Below are positions 5,626-16,549 of a stretch of 64,000 nt of DNA, piece by piece (within the stretch, counting starts at the first letter, position 1; each line of letters starts with the position of its first letter). Below the pieces are notes generated by a model. It made no database searches. It saw only the letters and a program-made list of their open reading frames with translations, and was not told the origin of the DNA. The stretch is from an uncultured Desulfobacteraceae bacterium (lineage in GTDB: Bacteria > Desulfobacterota > Desulfobacteria > Desulfobacterales > UBA5852): contig CAJXSL010000001.1 of NCBI GenBank assembly GCA_913060875.1, positions 248,001-312,000 of the forward strand. The letters run 5' to 3'. The translations under genes were made by a program, and so were the position numbers.

Positions 5626-5994
5626 TGTCTATGATCGGCGCCTTGATCGTTGGGGAGATTATCGGGGGTCAAGGGGCCGAGGATTCTAGTGAAATGCGCC
5701 AACCTCAAAGCGTCAAGCTGAAAGGGAAACGCTTCACATCGACCGCGAACCGATTTTCTGATTTCTCACGTTCTCTTTTTTAGCCGTTTAGCCTCGGTTC
5801 CTGGGCCCTTTTGGCCAACTTATATTGAGAAGCACCACCTTACCTAATATTCTGACGAACAAGCCGCCGGGAGAACCCAATTCTCCCGGCGGCTTGTTTC
5901 TTTTGATCTCGCCAGCGTCAGCTTGACCCCACGCCGGTTTGGGCCTAAAATTATCCCAAGATCCCATGAACCCGCCCACCAGCAGAGGTTTGCC
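5626..5994. other. Intergenic region with terminator, no gene seen
   Basis: This 369-base gap has no open frame with protein-like composition. Its one clear signal is the 17-base-pair hairpin at 5859-5897 followed by a T-rich run. The phrase GGGGCCGAGGATTC...AGTGAAATG near 5665-5695 recurs in similar form near 57784-57818, which suggests old dispersed-repeat remnants. Confidence 0.5.
5859..5905 (+). terminator. Intrinsic terminator, 17-bp perfect stem
   Basis: The arms 5859-5875 and 5881-5897 are perfect inverted repeats around a CCCAA loop, with a GC-rich core (GCCGCCGGGAG), and are followed on the plus strand by TTCTTTTG. It would end transcription from the YeeE/YedE pair before the next gene starts at 5995. 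The lower strand also has an A-rich flank, so it may work both ways. Confidence 0.8.
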
Positions 5995-7683
5995 ATGACG
6001 GAACTGACCCGATCCCAGAAGGCCCGGGTGGCCATCCGCAGTTTCAAAACCGGTGTGGATGCCATCGGCCTGCGGGGGTATTATCGCCCCACCGACCTCA
6101 TTGGCCAGGCCCTGGCCGACAGCCTGCGGATATTGAGCCCGGAGATATACGGCTCCATGAACGATCCCCGGGTGGTCGAACTCAACGGGCTGGAATATGT
6201 CATCGACCGGCTGCCCCGGGGCATCGAGCGCTGTAACCGGGTCATCCTGACGGAAGAGGATGGTTTCGAGGGCACCAATTTCGAAAAGATCGAACCCCCC
6301 AAGCGGCGTCGGACCTCTTACATGGTCAGCGATACGGAATTGTGTTTCGTCATTACCCGGGGGCTGAGCGAGATCTACGATATTCTGACCCACCTGACCT
6401 TTTTGACCAGCGAAGCCCAGAAGATCCAGGAGCGCATGCGGGACGATACCGGCCATGCCACCGTGGAATGGCTGGAACTGGAAAAGACTGTTCGCGGGGG
6501 GGCGCCCGCTTCAGGAGCGGAACTGGACCAGGCCCTCTGGAATTTGAGCATCATCCTGGGGCGTTCTTTCAAGGAAACACGCGAGACCTACGAATACCTC
6601 GAAACCGGCCGCCTGGAGAGCAACAGCAATGCGGGCCTTTTCGCCCTGGTCTATCACCTCGGCCGGCGTGTCGACGAAGAGAAGCGCGCGCCCGAGAACG
6701 CCCTGATCGTCTATCTCACCCCGGCGCTCATGAACAGCATCGGTCACCACAAATACGGCAAGCCCTGGGCCGCGACCCTCAAGGCGAAATTGATCGAGCT
6801 GGGGCTGGACCAGCGCCCCCTCCATATTATCAGCGCCAATTTGCACAGTGTGGTCAACCTGCTCTATGGACCGGCGGCGCTGGGTGCCGGCAAGGGCAAG
6901 GGCGGAGTGGGAGAGGTGGTGGACATGGTCTGCCGCCTGCTGGAAGAGCGGACGGATGTCTGCGCCGTCGGTGCCGAGGCCGGTCTGTACCTCATGCGGG
7001 ACACCGCCGGAACCCACGTGGACTGCCAGATCATCGACACGGCGCGCATCGACCCGGATACGGTGCACCCGGAGTTGGACGTGGCCGCTTTACGCGAGCA
7101 GACCGAGAAGCCGGTAATCCTGGTCATGGACTACGCTTTTGGCGTCCAGGCCTTCGAACTCATGGAGAACCTGCTGTATCCCCATTGGGAAGATGAAACG
7201 CCGCAGTTGTTCGACATCCGTTCGATCGCCGTCATGGGCAAGGCCGGCATCCTGGCCGGCAACAAAGGCGACATCATGCTGGCCACGGCCCACGTGATCG
7301 AAGGCACCACCGACAATTACACGGTCGCCAACGATCTGGCGCCGGAGGATTTCGGTGACGATATTCCCATCTATTCGGGTCCCATGCTGACGGTGGTGGG
7401 GACCTCGCTGCAGAACCGCGATGTGCTGCGCCGCATCCAGCGCGGCTGGAACGCCGTGGGCCTGGAGATGGAGGGCGGGCACTACCAGCGCGCCATCAAT
7501 GCCGCCATCATCAAGGGCAACATTCCCCCCGACATCAAGCTCCGCTATGCCTACTACGCCTCGGACAATCCCCTCCAGAGCGGCCAGACCCTGGCCTCGG
7601 GGCCCATGGGCCAGGAAGGACTGGCGCCGACGTACCGGATCACCAAGGTGCTGCTGGAAAAGATATTGGCCGACGCCGGGTGA
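5995..7683 (+). CDS. Large cytosolic protein of unknown role, phosphorylase-like C-terminus
   Basis: A 562-residue soluble protein without signal peptide or membrane segment. I recognise it only as a conserved hypothetical family (possibly DUF6909, unverified). The ATG at 5995 is preferred over one at 5923 because AGAGG precedes it. The N-terminal two thirds match nothing I can name. The C-terminal third has motifs in the order seen in nucleoside phosphorylases and nucleosidases: MGKAGILAGNKGDIMLAT, then LTVVGTSLQN, then AVGLEMEG (Glu491-Met-Glu-Gly494), then YYASDNPLQSG. In that superfamily the EME motif contacts the ribose and the SD motif the base. It stands alone between two terminator-like regions. 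Nucleoside or nucleotide cleavage is an inference. Confidence 0.8.
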   Translation: MTELTRSQKARVAIRSFKTGVDAIGLRGYYRPTDLIGQALADSLRILSPEIYGSMNDPRVVELNGLEYVIDRLPRGIERCNRVILTEEDGFEGTNFEKIEPPKRRRTSYMVSDTELCFVITRGLSEIYDILTHLTFLTSEAQKIQERMRDDTGHATVEWLELEKTVRGGAPASGAELDQALWNLSIILGRSFKETRETYEYLETGRLESNSNAGLFALVYHLGRRVDEEKRAPENALIVYLTPALMNSIGHHKYGKPWAATLKAKLIELGLDQRPLHIISANLHSVVNLLYGPAALGAGKGKGGVGEVVDMVCRLLEERTDVCAVGAEAGLYLMRDTAGTHVDCQIIDTARIDPDTVHPELDVAALREQTEKPVILVMDYAFGVQAFELMENLLYPHWEDETPQLFDIRSIAVMGKAGILAGNKGDIMLATAHVIEGTTDNYTVANDLAPEDFGDDIPIYSGPMLTVVGTSLQNRDVLRRIQRGWNAVGLEMEGGHYQRAINAAIIKGNIPPDIKLRYAYYASDNPLQSGQTLASGPMGQEGLAPTYRITKVLLEKILADAG

Positions 7684-7964
7684 CAGCCCCTTCCCATGGG
7701 GTGCAGGACAAACCAGGCGTGCCGCCCTTACCCTGAACAGGGGCGTGGGGGACATACGGGAGGCTGTTCGTTCGTGTGCTTCCGGGAACAGCTTCCCCCA
7801 ACCCGCCGATAAAACCGTTGTCCTTTTCCCGGGGCCCTGTTATGGGAGCCTGCCATGACCGCCGGAACCCGGCGGATGAAGCGTGGCGGGTAGCCCGATT
7901 ATTTCACGCGTTCGCGATTTTCATTTGTGTAGAAAAAATTTCATGACATGTTCGGGGTAGATCT
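7684..7964. other. Leader of the ECF genes; hairpins, no recognised riboswitch
   Basis: This 281-base gap precedes a vitamin-type importer operon, where a riboswitch would be expected. It holds a hairpin at about 7763-7795 (GGCTGTTC against GGGAACAGC), another at 7860-7876 (CCGCCGG against CCCGGCGG) and, at its end, a 70-base repeat shared with 16287-16549. I could not match the conserved cores of cobalamin, TPP, FMN, THF or ZTP riboswitches. Confidence 0.4.
7891..7960 (-). repeat. Short copy of a MITE-like element (family also at 16287-16549)
   Basis: Read on the minus strand, this 70-base unit begins CTACCCCGAACATGTCATGA, contains an A/T run with TTTTTTCTACAC, and ends CGAACGCGTGAAATAATCGG. 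Both ends recur, in the same relative order, at 16287-16319 and 16522-16549, where about 200 extra bases lie between them. The two termini are imperfect inverted repeats of each other (CCCGAACATTTCA type). The unit ends 4 bases before the TTG start of the ECF ATPase gene. Confidence 0.6.
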
Positions 7965-9275
7965 TTGCTGCAATGGAAACATGACATACCAACGCGCTAC
8001 TTCGCGACCTATGAAGCGCTCGAAGAGGCCTTCCGGGAGCGCATTGCCGGACTGGTGCCGCGTTACCACGCCGGAACACGGGTGTTCTGGGAAGATTTTC
8101 AGCAGCTTTACGAGAGCCCCCAAGCCCCGGGGCCGGGGGATGCCGAGGCCTATATCACCATCAATCCCCGGGACTGCCTGGCTTTTGGCTCCCCTTACCA
8201 GGTGTTGCAGGCCGCCTGGCTTGCGGCCCGGCAACATCAGGCGTCGGCGCCGGAAAGCCCCCGCCATGTTGCGGAAAAATTCGGGCTGGGCGGGCAGCTG
8301 CACCAGGCCATGCGTTCCCTTTCCGGCGGTGAAACCGTGCGGCTGGCCCTGGCCAAGGCGTACCTGGCGGCCCGGCATGCCGACCGCCTGACCATCGCCA
8401 GCCCTTTCAGCTGGCTGTCCCTGGATCACTGGACCGATTTCCGGATGCTGGCGGAACACTACGGCAACTGCGGCACGCCCCTGGAGCTGTTTGCCCTGGA
8501 AGGCGAGGATTCGACCGCCCCGGCCCCCTTCGGCGGCGCGCCGGCGCCCCTGACCTTTGCCTGGCGCCTGAAGGGGCTGCGGCTGGATCTCGGCACCCTG
8601 ATGGACCATCTGCACGACCGGCCGGTCTGGGCCGGGGTGGTGCCCCGGGATGAAACCCTGGATTCACCCTGTCTGCTGTGCGGCGACAACGGCCAGGGCA
8701 AAAGCCTGGTGGCCAAAACACTGGCCGCGGCCATGCCCTACACGGGTGAGGCTTCGGTGCACGTGTCCGGTGCGCCTTTGCGGGCGCGTCTTCTCTTCCA
8801 GGATGTGTTCAACCAGACCCTCATGCGCTCCATGCGGCAGTTGACCAGCCGGGGGAATACCGGCCCTGTGGCGGCGGTCTTCGAAGAGATCCTGGCGGCC
8901 ATGGGGACGCCGTCCGCCGCGGGCAGGACGCAAAACCTGTCTTCCCGCGTGGGGCAGGGAGACAGGAATCCCCCCAGCCTGCTCGAACTGAAAATACTCC
9001 TGACAGCGGTCCGGCTGGCGGCGGGGACGACCGTTCTGATCCTGGACGAGCCGGATTGGGGCTTGAGCCGATCGGATGCCGTGGCTTTCGTGACAGCGGT
9101 GGTGAATGCGGCCCATGCCCGGTCGGTGCCGGTGATCCTGATATCCCACAAGCCCTGGTGGCAGAACCTGGCCCGCAGTGTGCGCTGGGTCTGGAAAGAA
9201 ACCCCGGCGGCGCCGGATGCCGGGGGATGCCTTTTTCAGGTCCATATCCAGGACCGGCCGGGAGGTGACGCGTGA
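7965..9275 (+). CDS. Single-chain, internally degenerate ABC ATPase of an ECF-type importer
   Basis: Energising ATPase of about 436 residues with two ABC-like halves. The N-half has an intact signature, LSGGE at 119-123, but no Walker A and no Walker B acid (DRLTIASPF replaces it). The C-half has Walker A GDNGQGKS at 240-247, a Q-loop Gln at 279, Walker B VLILDEP at 356-362 and an H-loop His at 395, but no recognisable LSGGQ. One composite ATP site is therefore possible. The start must be the TTG at 7965 or nearby, since an in-frame stop lies at 7944-7946 and no ATG occurs before residue 116. It overlaps the next gene by 4 bases. The N-half's missing Walker A may reflect truncation next to a repeat element. 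Confidence 0.8.
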   Translation: MLQWKHDIPTRYFATYEALEEAFRERIAGLVPRYHAGTRVFWEDFQQLYESPQAPGPGDAEAYITINPRDCLAFGSPYQVLQAAWLAARQHQASAPESPRHVAEKFGLGGQLHQAMRSLSGGETVRLALAKAYLAARHADRLTIASPFSWLSLDHWTDFRMLAEHYGNCGTPLELFALEGEDSTAPAPFGGAPAPLTFAWRLKGLRLDLGTLMDHLHDRPVWAGVVPRDETLDSPCLLCGDNGQGKSLVAKTLAAAMPYTGEASVHVSGAPLRARLLFQDVFNQTLMRSMRQLTSRGNTGPVAAVFEEILAAMGTPSAAGRTQNLSSRVGQGDRNPPSLLELKILLTAVRLAAGTTVLILDEPDWGLSRSDAVAFVTAVVNAAHARSVPVILISHKPWWQNLARSVRWVWKETPAAPDAGGCLFQVHIQDRPGGDA

Positions 9276-9988
9276 AAGTATCCCATCGGCTCTTGGCCCT
9301 GGTGCTGCTGGCCATTCCGGTCTTTACCGGCTGGCACCCCCTGGCAAAGGGGGCCGAGCTGCTGCCCGGCGTGCCCTGGGGGCCGGTGGCGATCGTCGCC
9401 ATTGTGCTGGGCGGCGTGGCGGTTTGCTGCGGTCGGGCCTTTCTGGCCAATGCCGTGGCGATAACCGCGTTGATTCTGGTGCCCATCGTCTATGCCGGTG
9501 GCGGTGTGTCCTGGCTGCTGGCGGTCGCTAAGGGGACCGCACCGGGGGCTGCCGGGCAGGTCCACGGCGCTCACTACGTCGGACTGGCCTTGAACATGCT
9601 CGGCGTCATCCCCCTGGCCCTGGCCATTGTGGCGTCCATTCCCTTCGATCGCCTGGAGCAGCGGCTTTTACAGGGGCGGCGGGGCATCTCCGCGGGTGAA
9701 AAATACCTGCTCATGTTTCTGCGGGTCTTCAATCATATCGTCTATTTTGTTATACCCAACCTGCTGGAAGTCATGCGTGAGGAAGCCCTGTGGCGCCGGA
9801 CGCCGGCCCATGCCGCCGGACCGGCCCCCCGGCGCTCGCTCCGGGCCTGGGCGCAGGGCCTGGTGGCCGGCATGGTCCAGATCAGCGTCAGCGGGATCTG
9901 CGCCTCCTTGCGGTATATCCCCCTCTGGGCCAAAGAAATCGATGAACTGCCTCCGCGAACCCCTCAAAAGCACAGGAGCCCAAAGTGA
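9272..9988 (+). CDS. Membrane protein, probable ECF T component
   Basis: Membrane protein of about 238 residues with four to five hydrophobic segments (near residues 5-25, 35-75, 100-122 and 145-165), then a basic cytosolic stretch (LEQRLLQGRRG) and a C-terminal amphipathic region. Overlaps of 4 bases on both sides place it between an ABC-type ATPase and an S component, the slot of the EcfT scaffold that couples ATP hydrolysis to substrate release. I do not see the classic Ala-Arg-Gly motif pair of EcfT clearly, so this assignment rests mainly on context and topology. Confidence 0.7.
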   Translation: MKVSHRLLALVLLAIPVFTGWHPLAKGAELLPGVPWGPVAIVAIVLGGVAVCCGRAFLANAVAITALILVPIVYAGGGVSWLLAVAKGTAPGAAGQVHGAHYVGLALNMLGVIPLALAIVASIPFDRLEQRLLQGRRGISAGEKYLLMFLRVFNHIVYFVIPNLLEVMREEALWRRTPAHAAGPAPRRSLRAWAQGLVAGMVQISVSGICASLRYIPLWAKEIDELPPRTPQKHRSPK

Positions 9989-10530
9989 AATCGAACACCC
10001 AGATGCAACAGCTCATTCTCGTTGGCGTGACCGCGGCTTTTGCAACCCTCGCCTTTCTGGGAACGACCGTCATCCGGATCCCCATTCCCGCCTCCGGGGG
10101 CTATTTCAATCTCGGGGACACTTTTGTCATGGCCGCCGCCCTGTTGTACGGCCCGGTGGTCGGCGGGCTGGTGGGTGCCATCGGTCCTGCCATGGCGGAC
10201 GCGGTGGGATTTCCGCAGTTCATCCTGGCCACAGCGGTGGTGAAAGGGATCGAAGGCCTGCTGATCGGCCTCTTGGCCGGACGCCGGCCCCGCCCGCTGC
10301 GGGCCGTGCTCGCGCTGGCGGTCGGGGTGGTGATTCTGGTGGGGGGCTACTATATCTTCGAGGCGCTCATCTATCCCCTGCTGGCCCGCAGCATTCCCTT
10401 TTTCGGGGTGACCGATGCGGCCGCGGCCCTGGCGGAACTGGTGCCCAATCTCCTGCAGGGGGGCATCAGTGCCCTCATCGCTTTCGGGATCTGGAAAGTG
10501 CTGGCCCGGCGGGTCGGCGGAGGAGGTTGA
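9985..10530 (+). CDS. ECF transporter S component (substrate-binding membrane protein)
   Basis: Membrane protein of 181 residues with about six helices and the pattern of ECF S components. RIPIPASGGYFNLGDTFVM is followed by LLYGPVVGGLVGAIGPAMAD and ILATAVVKGIEGLLIGLLAG. S components bind vitamins or metal precursors and dock on the T component. The gene overlaps the T-component gene by 4 bases and ends the operon. The vitamin or cofactor carried cannot be deduced, since no linked biosynthesis gene or recognisable riboswitch is present. Its downstream flank is a 188-base inverted-repeat element. Confidence 0.88.
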   Translation: MKSNTQMQQLILVGVTAAFATLAFLGTTVIRIPIPASGGYFNLGDTFVMAAALLYGPVVGGLVGAIGPAMADAVGFPQFILATAVVKGIEGLLIGLLAGRRPRPLRAVLALAVGVVILVGGYYIFEALIYPLLARSIPFFGVTDAAAALAELVPNLLQGGISALIAFGIWKVLARRVGGGG

Positions 10531-10853
10531 GGGAAGTCCTGGCAGCGGTATTGATTTTACGGATGGGGTGATGTTTCGGCCCCGGCCAAACTCACGCTTA
10601 AGGGTTCGTAACAACAGCGCCGGCCAGGAAACCGGGGGCCCACCCACGGTTGCCAGCTTCCGATGAAATAAATTGATACGCTATGGCGCTGTTGCAACGA
10701 TCCCTAATTCGTTCAGACAGCGTCCGGGCCCGAAACATCACCCCATCCTTCGGGCGTTCCTGCGTATCGATAGTTCGGGATGCGCCGCCAGTTGGCTGGC
10801 GTTTGATGGAATACAGCGATATGTTGTCGAGTTTCTTGCGGTATGTCGTTCGC
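10531..10853. other. Convergent intergenic region filled by an inverted-repeat element
   Basis: This 323-base gap lies between the plus-strand ECF S gene and the minus-strand ABC-F gene. More than half of it is the element at 10561-10748. No protein-like frame is visible. The gap may also serve as terminator for both genes. Confidence 0.5.
10561..10748. repeat. 188-base element with 25-base inverted termini
   Basis: The left end at 10561-10585 begins GGATGGGGTGATGTTTCGG. The right end at 10724-10748 is its reverse complement with 24 of 25 positions matching. A second, inner inverted pair (10602-10621 against 10685-10704, around CAACAGCGCC) matches at about 16 of 20. The whole could fold into one long hairpin. 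It resembles a small non-autonomous transposable element or a large bidirectional terminator. Confidence 0.7.
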
Positions 10854-15656: not shown

Positions 15657-16289
15657 ATGATGAAACGATATGGCTTGATCCTACTACTCGCCGTGCTGAT
15701 GCTGCCGATCACCCAGGCGGCAATCGCCGGCGAACCGAGCGACGTCATCAAGGCGCCGATGGATGAGGCGCTGGCCCTGTTGCGGGATCCGCAATACCAA
15801 TCGGACGACCCCCAGAAGCGGGCCGAGCAGCGGGAAAAATTTTGGGCCATCATCGAACCGGCGTTTGATTTCATGGAATTGTCCAAGCGAACCCTGGCGC
15901 GCAACTGGAAAAAATTCGACGACGCCCAAAGAGTGGCCTTTGCCGAAGTCTTTTCCGATCTTCTGGGCAATATCTATGTGGATCGCATTCAGGGCGAATA
16001 CAATGACGAGACCATCGAATTCGGCGATCAATTCCTGCACGAATCGCGCCCGCTGGCCGTGGTCAAGACCTTCATCGTTTCCTCCCGGAACCGCATCCCG
16101 GTGGACTACAGCATGATTCAAAAAGAGGACACCTGGCGCATTTACGACGTCAAGGTCGAAGGGATCAGCCTGGTCAAGAATTACCGCTCCCAGTTCAAGG
16201 AGATCCTGGCCAAAGAATCCCCGGATCAGTTGATCGAACGTCTGAAGGAGAAAGTCGCTGCGCAGAAAGCGAATCTGGCCAAAGGGTAG
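15657..16289 (+). CDS. mlaC: MlaC/Ttg2D family periplasmic phospholipid carrier
   Basis: Exported protein of 210 residues with a signal peptide (MMKRYGLILLLAVLMLPITQ, cleavage near AIAG). It belongs to the MlaC/Ttg2D family, which shuttles single phospholipids across the periplasm. Typical segments are FMELSKRTLARNWKKFDDAQ, FAEVFSDLLGNIYVDRI and a central beta sheet with VSSRNRIPVDYSM and IYDVKVEGISLVKNYRSQF. GGGAG precedes the ATG at 15657. It is the last gene of the Mla unit; its stop codon TAG forms the first bases of a repeat element. Confidence 0.93.
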   Translation: MMKRYGLILLLAVLMLPITQAAIAGEPSDVIKAPMDEALALLRDPQYQSDDPQKRAEQREKFWAIIEPAFDFMELSKRTLARNWKKFDDAQRVAFAEVFSDLLGNIYVDRIQGEYNDETIEFGDQFLHESRPLAVVKTFIVSSRNRIPVDYSMIQKEDTWRIYDVKVEGISLVKNYRSQFKEILAKESPDQLIERLKEKVAAQKANLAKG

Positions 16290-16549
16290 CCCGAACATTT
16301 CATGAGATTTTTTCTACACTATAAATTTTATGCAACTATTCAGGGGTATCAAAGCTATTCGAGGTATGATTTTCAGGTGACACTTTGCAGCCTGCGTCGA
16401 TTTCCAAAATTATCGATAAAATTTCACCCTGCGGGCGCGCCCGAGATGCTCATTGGCCGCGTTATCAGGGGTTTGCGGTAGCAGACGTACAGCGGCGCCC
16501 CTGATGCCTTGCCAATGAACATCTCGAACGCGTGAAATATCCGGGGTAG
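16287..16549 (+). repeat. Long copy of the MITE-like element with internal hairpin
   Basis: This 263-base unit begins TAGCCCGAACATTTCATGAG and ends CTCGAACGCGTGAAATATCC; both ends match the 70-base copy at 7891-7960 read on the opposite strand. Its interior has a hairpin: 16442-16457 against 16511-16526 (15 of 16 pairs), with a nested pair ATCAGGGG (16464-16471) and CCCCTGAT (16498-16505). The left end overlaps the mlaC stop codon. No transposase is present, so it would be non-autonomous if mobile. Confidence 0.6.

Follow-up and report, generated by a model that had tools for sequence, protein, structure and literature searches.

Genes and features of the locus

The analysed window is a stretch of 64,000 nucleotides from an uncultured Desulfobacteraceae bacterium, and all positions refer to it. 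Its forward strand carries three consecutive genes, termed here A, T and S. The first encodes a single-chain ABC ATPase of 436 amino acids with a TTG start codon (7965..9275), and this reading frame is present as an earlier preliminary description of the region had it. The second (9272..9988) encodes a putative EcfT-like membrane protein of 238 amino acids, and the third (9985..10530) an ECF S component of 181 amino acids that matches PF07155 (E 8e-29). Since both junctions, A-T and T-S, are four-base GTGA overlaps, the three genes probably constitute one coupled operon.

Immediately upstream of A, a repeat search within the same genome located a copy of a dispersed MITE-like repeat that is shortened internally and does not belong to the system (7890..7960, forward strand). 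It ends four bases before the TTG codon, exactly as had been noted before. The element is about 275 bp long with imperfect terminal inverted repeats (CTARCCCGRAYATTTCAYG...). The genome contains 56 matches to it, the copy upstream of A among them; single arms make up the majority, and 15 longer copies were aligned. One such longer copy lies at about 16287-16548 on the reverse strand, and the copy in front of the ATPase gene is missing about 190 internal bases. Just after the S gene, a stretch of 188 bp (10561-10748) is bounded by inverted 25-nt sequences that are 96% complementary and contains further inverted repeats inside, and no further copy of it was found in the genome.

Directly upstream of A, positions 5977-7683 encode a DUF6909 protein (PF21850, E 1e-63). 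DUF6909 also precedes the operon in three related loci, L033 (checked with Pfam) and L036 and L037 (assigned by BLAST cluster). At gathering thresholds, Rfam detected only a tRNA in the window and no riboswitch that would give a clue to the substrate; in the 14 of 31 related loci that were scanned, it detected parts of a group II intron in one and nothing else. The recurrent neighbours (DUF6909, a Na+/H+ antiporter, an aminotransferase, YhhN and ABC-F proteins) each occur in 3 to 6 of the 31 loci, and none of them names a vitamin.

Complementary motif content of the two ATPase halves

Motifs are named by the canonical definitions of the Walker A and B motifs and the Q-, D- and H-loops, and their places in A were obtained from the alignment of relatives and from profile comparison. 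The N-terminal half (about residues 1-190, 7965..8534), which profile comparison and the structural model depict as a signature donor without a nucleotide pocket, carries the signature LSGGE at residues 119-123 (8319..8333), with no GxxGxGK[S/T] motif upstream of it. The place of the putatively lost P-loop is taken by ATYEALE at residues 14-20 (8004..8024); the Walker B place reads LTIASPFSWLS (8388..8420), from which the Asp/Glu pair is gone, and the H-loop place reads LFALEGED. The C-terminal half has the reverse content, with a Walker A motif GDNGQGKS (8682..8705), the Q-loop Gln279 (8799..8801), a Walker B motif LILDEPDWGL (9036..9065) that includes the catalytic Glu362, and an H-loop ISHKPWW (9141..9161) that includes His395. 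By alignment and profile comparison, its signature place is occupied by SLLELK instead of LSGGQ (8976..8993).

The motif distribution proposed earlier is thus borne out on the 436-residue ORF for both halves, with the Q-loop as an addition to the C-half inventory. The same description had called the halves complementary and dead; the first term is appropriate but the second is not, as the halves complement each other.

The best Pfam match to an ABC domain in A is ABC_tran (E 3e-8), which covers residues 237-363 in the C-half; this family was matched in all 30 A proteins searched, in the window protein as this C-half stretch. A PDB sequence search with the single protein gave no match at an E-value of 0.01, while the profile of A matched general ABC proteins. 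The chain has two ABC ATPase domains, the C-half recognized by ABC_tran and the N-half by profile comparison and the model. However, ECF ATPases are defined by Walker A and B motifs in both domains, and the N-half of A has neither.

Conservation of the asymmetry among relatives

Relatives of A, which come mostly from metagenome-assembled genomes (MAGs), were collected in two ways. A protein search found matches in all six genomes of the family and in 29 of 389 genomes of the class, the latter spread over 12 family labels that all belong to one order; one of these 29 genomes, G053, contributes a broken fragment. A scan of a species-genome collection yielded 32 loci (L033-L064), of which 29 are named Desulfo- or deltaproteobacterium and the others Saprospiraceae, Riflebacteria and Spirochaetaceae. 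Counts for the C-half Walker motifs are partly selected in this second collection, because the scan patterns were pieces of C-half Walker A and Walker B; LSGGE was in none of them. Two alignments were prepared: A1, with 27 proteins gathered by protein similarity, and A2, with 30 proteins that are 24-65% identical to the window protein (median 39%). As A2 stems from the pattern scan, A1 is the fairer test of the C-half Walker motifs.

Removal of duplicates and of masked, broken or unrelated rows left 32 distinct proteins. Dropped before counting were two general ABC matches (L007, L008), a locus with masked bases (L014/L041), the broken copy of one genome (L031/L063) and a masked second fragment (L032), and L064 was kept out as a different system that is treated separately below. 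All 32 proteins have LSGGE, and all 32 have the C-half motifs G.NG.GK[ST] and DEP[DG]WG, both partly selected by the scan patterns. None of the 32 has a G..G.GK[ST] or a DE[PA] motif in the N-half. One protein (L019/L050) gave a VSAGE regular-expression match, which by eye falls in the linker between the halves.

In A1, the invariant positions include LSGGE, G240, N242, G243, G245, K246, Q279, D361, E362, P363 and H395, and S247 is either Ser or Thr. These site residues are invariant in A2 as well, apart from the Asn that L053 has at position 395, so that His395 is found in 27/27 and 29/30 proteins, respectively. When the composite site was set as 14 positions, 13 of them fell within the 40 invariant columns of A1 among 436 (p = 6e-14), and 12 within the 28 invariant columns of A2 (p = 3e-14). 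By this measure, the asymmetry of A is beyond chance. Codons are mixed at invariant columns, for instance GGT9/GGA8/GGC7/GGG6 at G122. A maximum-likelihood tree of A has two clades separated by a long, fully supported branch, and the pattern is present in both.

The start of the gene four bases past a repeat could point to truncation or misassembly at that element, and close homologues with an N-half Walker A would have spoken for such a local event. We reject this explanation, whose probability is practically negligible, since the same architecture is shared by 32 distinct proteins, which come from many assemblies. With an N-half Walker A in 0/32, and LSGGE paired with a C-half Walker A in 32/32, an inherited design is indicated rather than truncation by the repeat, and the two checks that the preliminary description proposed on homologues therefore both came out in favour of a designed asymmetry, one shared by both clades.

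The A-T-S operon is scattered across Desulfobacterales. The Saprospiraceae MAG copy (L053), 32% identical to the window protein in A2, sits on a long tree branch and keeps the other site residues beside the His-to-Asn change in its H-loop. This locus and that of a Riflebacteria MAG (L059), both named outside the deltaproteobacteria, may represent transfers or binning errors. In one Desulfobacterales genome (L031/L063, G053 contig C273), the operon copy is broken: the ATPase is partial and interrupted by a stop, and T is truncated.

Predicted structure and the proposed single composite site

Profile comparison was carried out against canonical ECF ATPase halves, for which two Walker A matches were additionally required. 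The N-half of A aligned with canonical N-halves at an hhalign probability of 97.7 (one-on-one E 1.5e-12), with LSGGE placed on LSGGE, and nearly as well with canonical C-halves (97.1). The C-half reached 99.5 against canonical C-halves and 99.4 against N-halves. Because the N-half alignment starts at residue 25, the P-loop place was counted back from the aligned GLIP/GLVP.

The AlphaFold2 model of the single chain has a pLDDT of 88.3 and a pTM of 0.89. At the beginning of the N-half it contains a strand (residues 10-13), a short turn and a helix (16-26), and Glu17 of ATYEALE occurs in 26 of 30 proteins. The P-loop of this half seems to have been exchanged for another stretch and not altered by point mutations; in the model, the segment ahead of its place would be too short for the usual strands on the adenine side. 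At the N-half Walker B place, P147 and W150 are invariant; at the Q-loop place, Pro68 is kept and Gln is gone, and residue 66 (by eye) is S17, A4, P4, C2, I, L and G. K343 is invariant within the SLLELK that replaces the C-half signature.

When the model was aligned with known structures by VIA-align, residues 7-436 corresponded to tandem pairs of nucleotide-binding domains (NBDs). The matches included the A2 component of MCR activation (Z 21.2), ATP-bound DppABCD (Z 20.8), ATP-bound E1371Q CFTR (Z 20.4, rmsd 4.5, 349 aligned) and vanadate-trapped BSEP (Z 19.5), as well as apo ABCB1 (Z 18.5) beyond the ATP-bound states. Exactly one composite site per chain, as originally suggested, would follow from the motifs together with this confident model.

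Two other arrangements have to be weighed here. Motifs are silent on whether the partner half belongs to the same chain, and the C-half of one A chain might instead meet the LSGGE of another, so that each complex would have two sites. Tandem ABC chains are known to dimerize, and the fold matches of A include UvrA. We regard such an interchain site as improbable, since the single-chain model covers tandem NBD pairs over residues 7-436 and each A gene is accompanied by one T gene. Alternatively, non-canonical residues of the N-half might still hold a nucleotide, be it ATP or another. The precedent is the deviant site of Pdr5, which, according to passages of PMC8421411 and PMC7756269, holds ATP even though all its motifs but the D-loop are changed, and the N-half of A has invariant residues (G37, F41, P68, P147, W150) that could serve in this way. 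A pocket of this type is unlikely, because no remnant of GxxGxGK is left at the P-loop place in any of the 32 proteins, and only some 15 residues precede the first helix in the model, which is not enough for the usual adenine-side strands. The single intrachain site is accordingly the arrangement that we carry forward, with its geometry taken as predicted.

Operon partners T and S

A is followed by a T gene in 30 of the 31 related loci and by an S gene in 27. Among the loci without S, L053 reaches its contig end and L063 is broken; in L042, A and T are present and T is followed by a different gene, and in L061 T is followed by a reverse-strand ORF that resembles a transposition helper and is presumably IstB-like. 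T was found in all 29 A-positive genomes, by means of a model to which some of these genomes had contributed. It occurs in 30 of 389 genomes of the order, one of which (G767) lies outside the set searched for A. Across the wider phylum, T was detected in one of 395 sampled genomes, namely its own, and T therefore supplies no outgroup.

S is assigned by sequence: PF07155 was also found in both relatives scanned, and TIGR04002 matched 25/25 S proteins at E <= 0.001, with the window S at 38.8 bits, below the model cut-off of 120. Alignment A4 excludes the S genes of L038, L040 and L052, which are partial. The genome has no second PF07155 gene, and three CbiQ-type T genes lie elsewhere in it.

The T protein of the window has no Pfam match at E-values up to 1 and no NCBIfam match up to 0.1, and the Pfam CbiQ model (PF02361) matches none of the 30 T proteins at E-values up to 1. 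A PDB sequence search gave no credible match, and Foldseek gave nothing significant, its best match being an EcfT (E 0.94). The model of T has a pLDDT of 87.6 and a pTM of 0.72. In VIA-align, ECF T chains account for eight of the top nine matches, at Z-scores of 6.0-7.7 that lie below the tool's caution level for helical models; these EcfT matches cover about residues 1-135 only and leave the coupling part outside, with the exception of 8bms_C (1-229). Against the canonical EcfT profile the match is weak (hhalign probability 19), and the region of the invariant Arg151 falls beside the canonical conserved region.

According to part of PMC6828968, the X-Arg-X motifs of the coupling helices are essential for assembly and ATPase activity in known ECF systems. 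This motif (mostly Ala-Arg-Gly), expected at both coupling-helix ends, is not conserved in T, and A[RK][GS] occurs in the C-terminal region of 4 of the 30 T proteins. The first place reads R/S/T/A-E-E at residues 169-171 (9776-9784), where Arg169 is found in 23/30 proteins and both Glu170 and Glu171 in 30/30; near the end of the second coupling helix, Glu222 is present in all 29 proteins without a gap. These acidic positions may be equivalent to the canonical X-Arg-X places, and the invariant Glu-Glu suggests a changed contact with the ATPase. From its operon position and a fold match that is specific but weak, we read T as an EcfT-like protein that is strongly diverged and altered in its coupling contacts. 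The earlier label "ECF" is thus sound by sequence for the S component, and for the T component it holds by operon position and this fold match.

Pairwise distances correlate between A and T (0.94), A and S (0.89), and T and S (0.93) over 24 loci, with 0 of 2000 permutations as high. These correlations bear on a further alternative, by which ATP binding to A would act as a switch or sensor instead of powering transport, and S would function alone or with another ECF module. Solitary transporting S components are described in sections of PMC11109136, and the three other CbiQ-type T genes could provide such a module. This alternative is very unlikely, as A, T and S evolve together, and binding alone would need neither Glu362, kept in 32/32, nor His395, kept in 29/30. 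A dedicated A-T-S complex remains the preferred reading.

A possible intermediate in Spirochaetaceae

The system set aside above comes from a Spirochaetaceae MAG and comprises a tandem ECF ATPase in two contig pieces (L064, 3-620, forward strand; L074, 3-1091, reverse strand), which share a 99% identical overlap of 104 residues. The gene is flanked by a PF07155 S component (E 3e-30) and an ordinary CbiQ-type T (PF02361, E 4e-26). Its N-half has Walker A, LSGGE and Walker B and has lost the H-loop His (LAEKN). Its C-half has Walker A and DEPDWG, and its signature is replaced by LSFAMRKR. The DEPDWG shared with A reflects selection, because L064 was caught via that pattern.

Similar to A-T-S, this system combines a PF07155 S component, a tandem ATPase and a T protein with loss of the C-half signature. 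It departs from A-T-S in keeping an intact Walker A in each half and an intact Walker B in the N-half, in a T of ordinary CbiQ type that carries ARG motifs, and in the gene order S-A-T. As a single example, it is a possible evolutionary intermediate toward A.

In a survey of Spirochaetota, 19 of 19 tandem-size ORFs keep both Walker A motifs, in a sample biased by a query that had Walker A motifs and by the inclusion of near-duplicates. A CbiQ-like ORF accompanies 17 of the 19; it lies in the same locus except in the case of L074, where it is on L064, the contig that overlaps. The 16 visible C-half signatures comprise five LSGG[QE] and eleven LSxG[QEN], with L064 as the sole LSFAM. The tandem ECF ATPase encoded elsewhere in the genome of the window has both motifs twice. 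Together, these data indicate that drift of the C-half signature is common, within this biased sample, while loss of the P-loop was observed only in the present A family.

Proposed transport cycle and its significance

We propose, with a probability of roughly 0.7, that A, T and S work together as a dedicated ECF-like importer of a micronutrient, driven by a motor with one ATP site. In simple terms, it appears to be a nutrient importer of sediment bacteria with a two-part ATP motor, one part of which has no pocket of its own and only helps the other to burn ATP. The two halves of A would fold as a pseudo-symmetric, head-to-tail ABC dimer, and the only ATP would be bound by the C-half through Walker A, the Q-loop, Glu362 and His395. 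Upon closure, the LSGGE of the N-half would be pressed onto this ATP as a built-in activator that itself carries no nucleotide, and hydrolysis by way of Glu362 and His395 would re-open the site. The opposite interface, between an N-half without P-loop and a C-half without signature, would be inert and nucleotide-free, and probably a hinge. As the single site opens and closes, the coupling helices of T would bend, so that S is released or recaptured.

Such a cycle would resemble the published ECF expulsion model, in which, as outlined in portions of PMC10368641, closure of the ATPase pair thrusts the EcfT coupling helices towards the membrane and S is expelled, but it would use one ATP per cycle. 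Parts of the same source report that in a canonical ECF module the loss of either catalytic Glu abolishes ATPase activity and transport. As these single mutants are dead, a motor with one site must differ from the canonical one in its cycle or its coupling. A more elaborate reading, which is tentative and to which we give somewhat less than even chances, is a distinct lineage of ECF-like importers that uses exactly one ATP per cycle. Here the stripped half would be a permanent intramolecular activator and the second interface a nucleotide-free hinge, T would have been rebuilt with invariant acidic residues in place of the coupling arginines, and the Spirochaetaceae PF07155 system would preserve the first step.

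Whether an ABC motor spends one ATP or two in each cycle, and what purpose a degenerate site serves, are old questions. The roles of the two sites are hard to separate in known cases such as Pdr5, because the dead site still binds ATP. Single Walker B mutants of an ECF module indicate that both sites are needed there (PMC10368641, in the parts at hand), and A would be a natural single-site version. If the proposal is true, one-ATP transport would become directly testable in a conserved ECF-like motor that has a single site and lacks a second pocket, and the unusual T may show how coupling changed alongside a one-site ATPase.

Comparison with known ABC and ECF systems

Complementary loss of motifs is typical of degenerate-site ABC transporters, and A fits this mechanism in having one composite site complete while the other is minus its Walker and signature residues. 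As in A, Pdr5, CFTR, TAP, MRP1 and ABCG5/G8 have one full site, built from the Walker motifs of NBD2 and the signature of NBD1, and a degraded second one; Pdr5 and other degenerate-site exporters have likewise lost the C-half signature, and passages of PMC8421411 state that NBD1 of Pdr5 keeps VSGGE. These proteins are, however, exporters with membrane domains of their own, whereas A stands in an ECF-like importer context. The chain of PDR/ABCG proteins such as Pdr5 is arranged as NBD-TMD-NBD-TMD, while A, with 436 amino acids, consists of two ABC folds and has T and S in separate genes. The main difference concerns the P-loop, which in Pdr5 is altered but still there, at a deviant site that holds ATP (parts of PMC8421411 and PMC7756269), and which in A is absent. 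Judged from sequence, this absence argues against a nucleotide at the degenerate site of A.

In the open full-text literature, as far as it was covered and including PMC4820897 and PMC5037267 (subscription papers lie mostly outside it), we found no description of an ECF ATPase in which a site is degenerate or missing. Complementary degeneration is already known from Pdr5; for an ECF-type motor that has lost an entire P-loop, no account was found within that scope.

The closest systems in overall organization are the group I ECF transporters of the YkoEDC type, whose ATPase domains are fused, and the group II EcfAA'T module; both likewise combine a two-domain ATPase, a membrane coupling protein and an S component. 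The S component of A-T-S is PF07155, and the model of T finds its nearest solved folds, by a weak match, among EcfT/CbiQ chains. It differs from them in that one ATPase half has no Walker A and that T has no conserved X-Arg-X and is missed by the Pfam CbiQ model. Since it departs from the canonical type in the Walker motifs of one ATPase domain, in the CbiQ sequence and in X-Arg-X, we do not file A-T-S as a canonical ECF transporter; it is a new ECF-like variant that most likely works like one.
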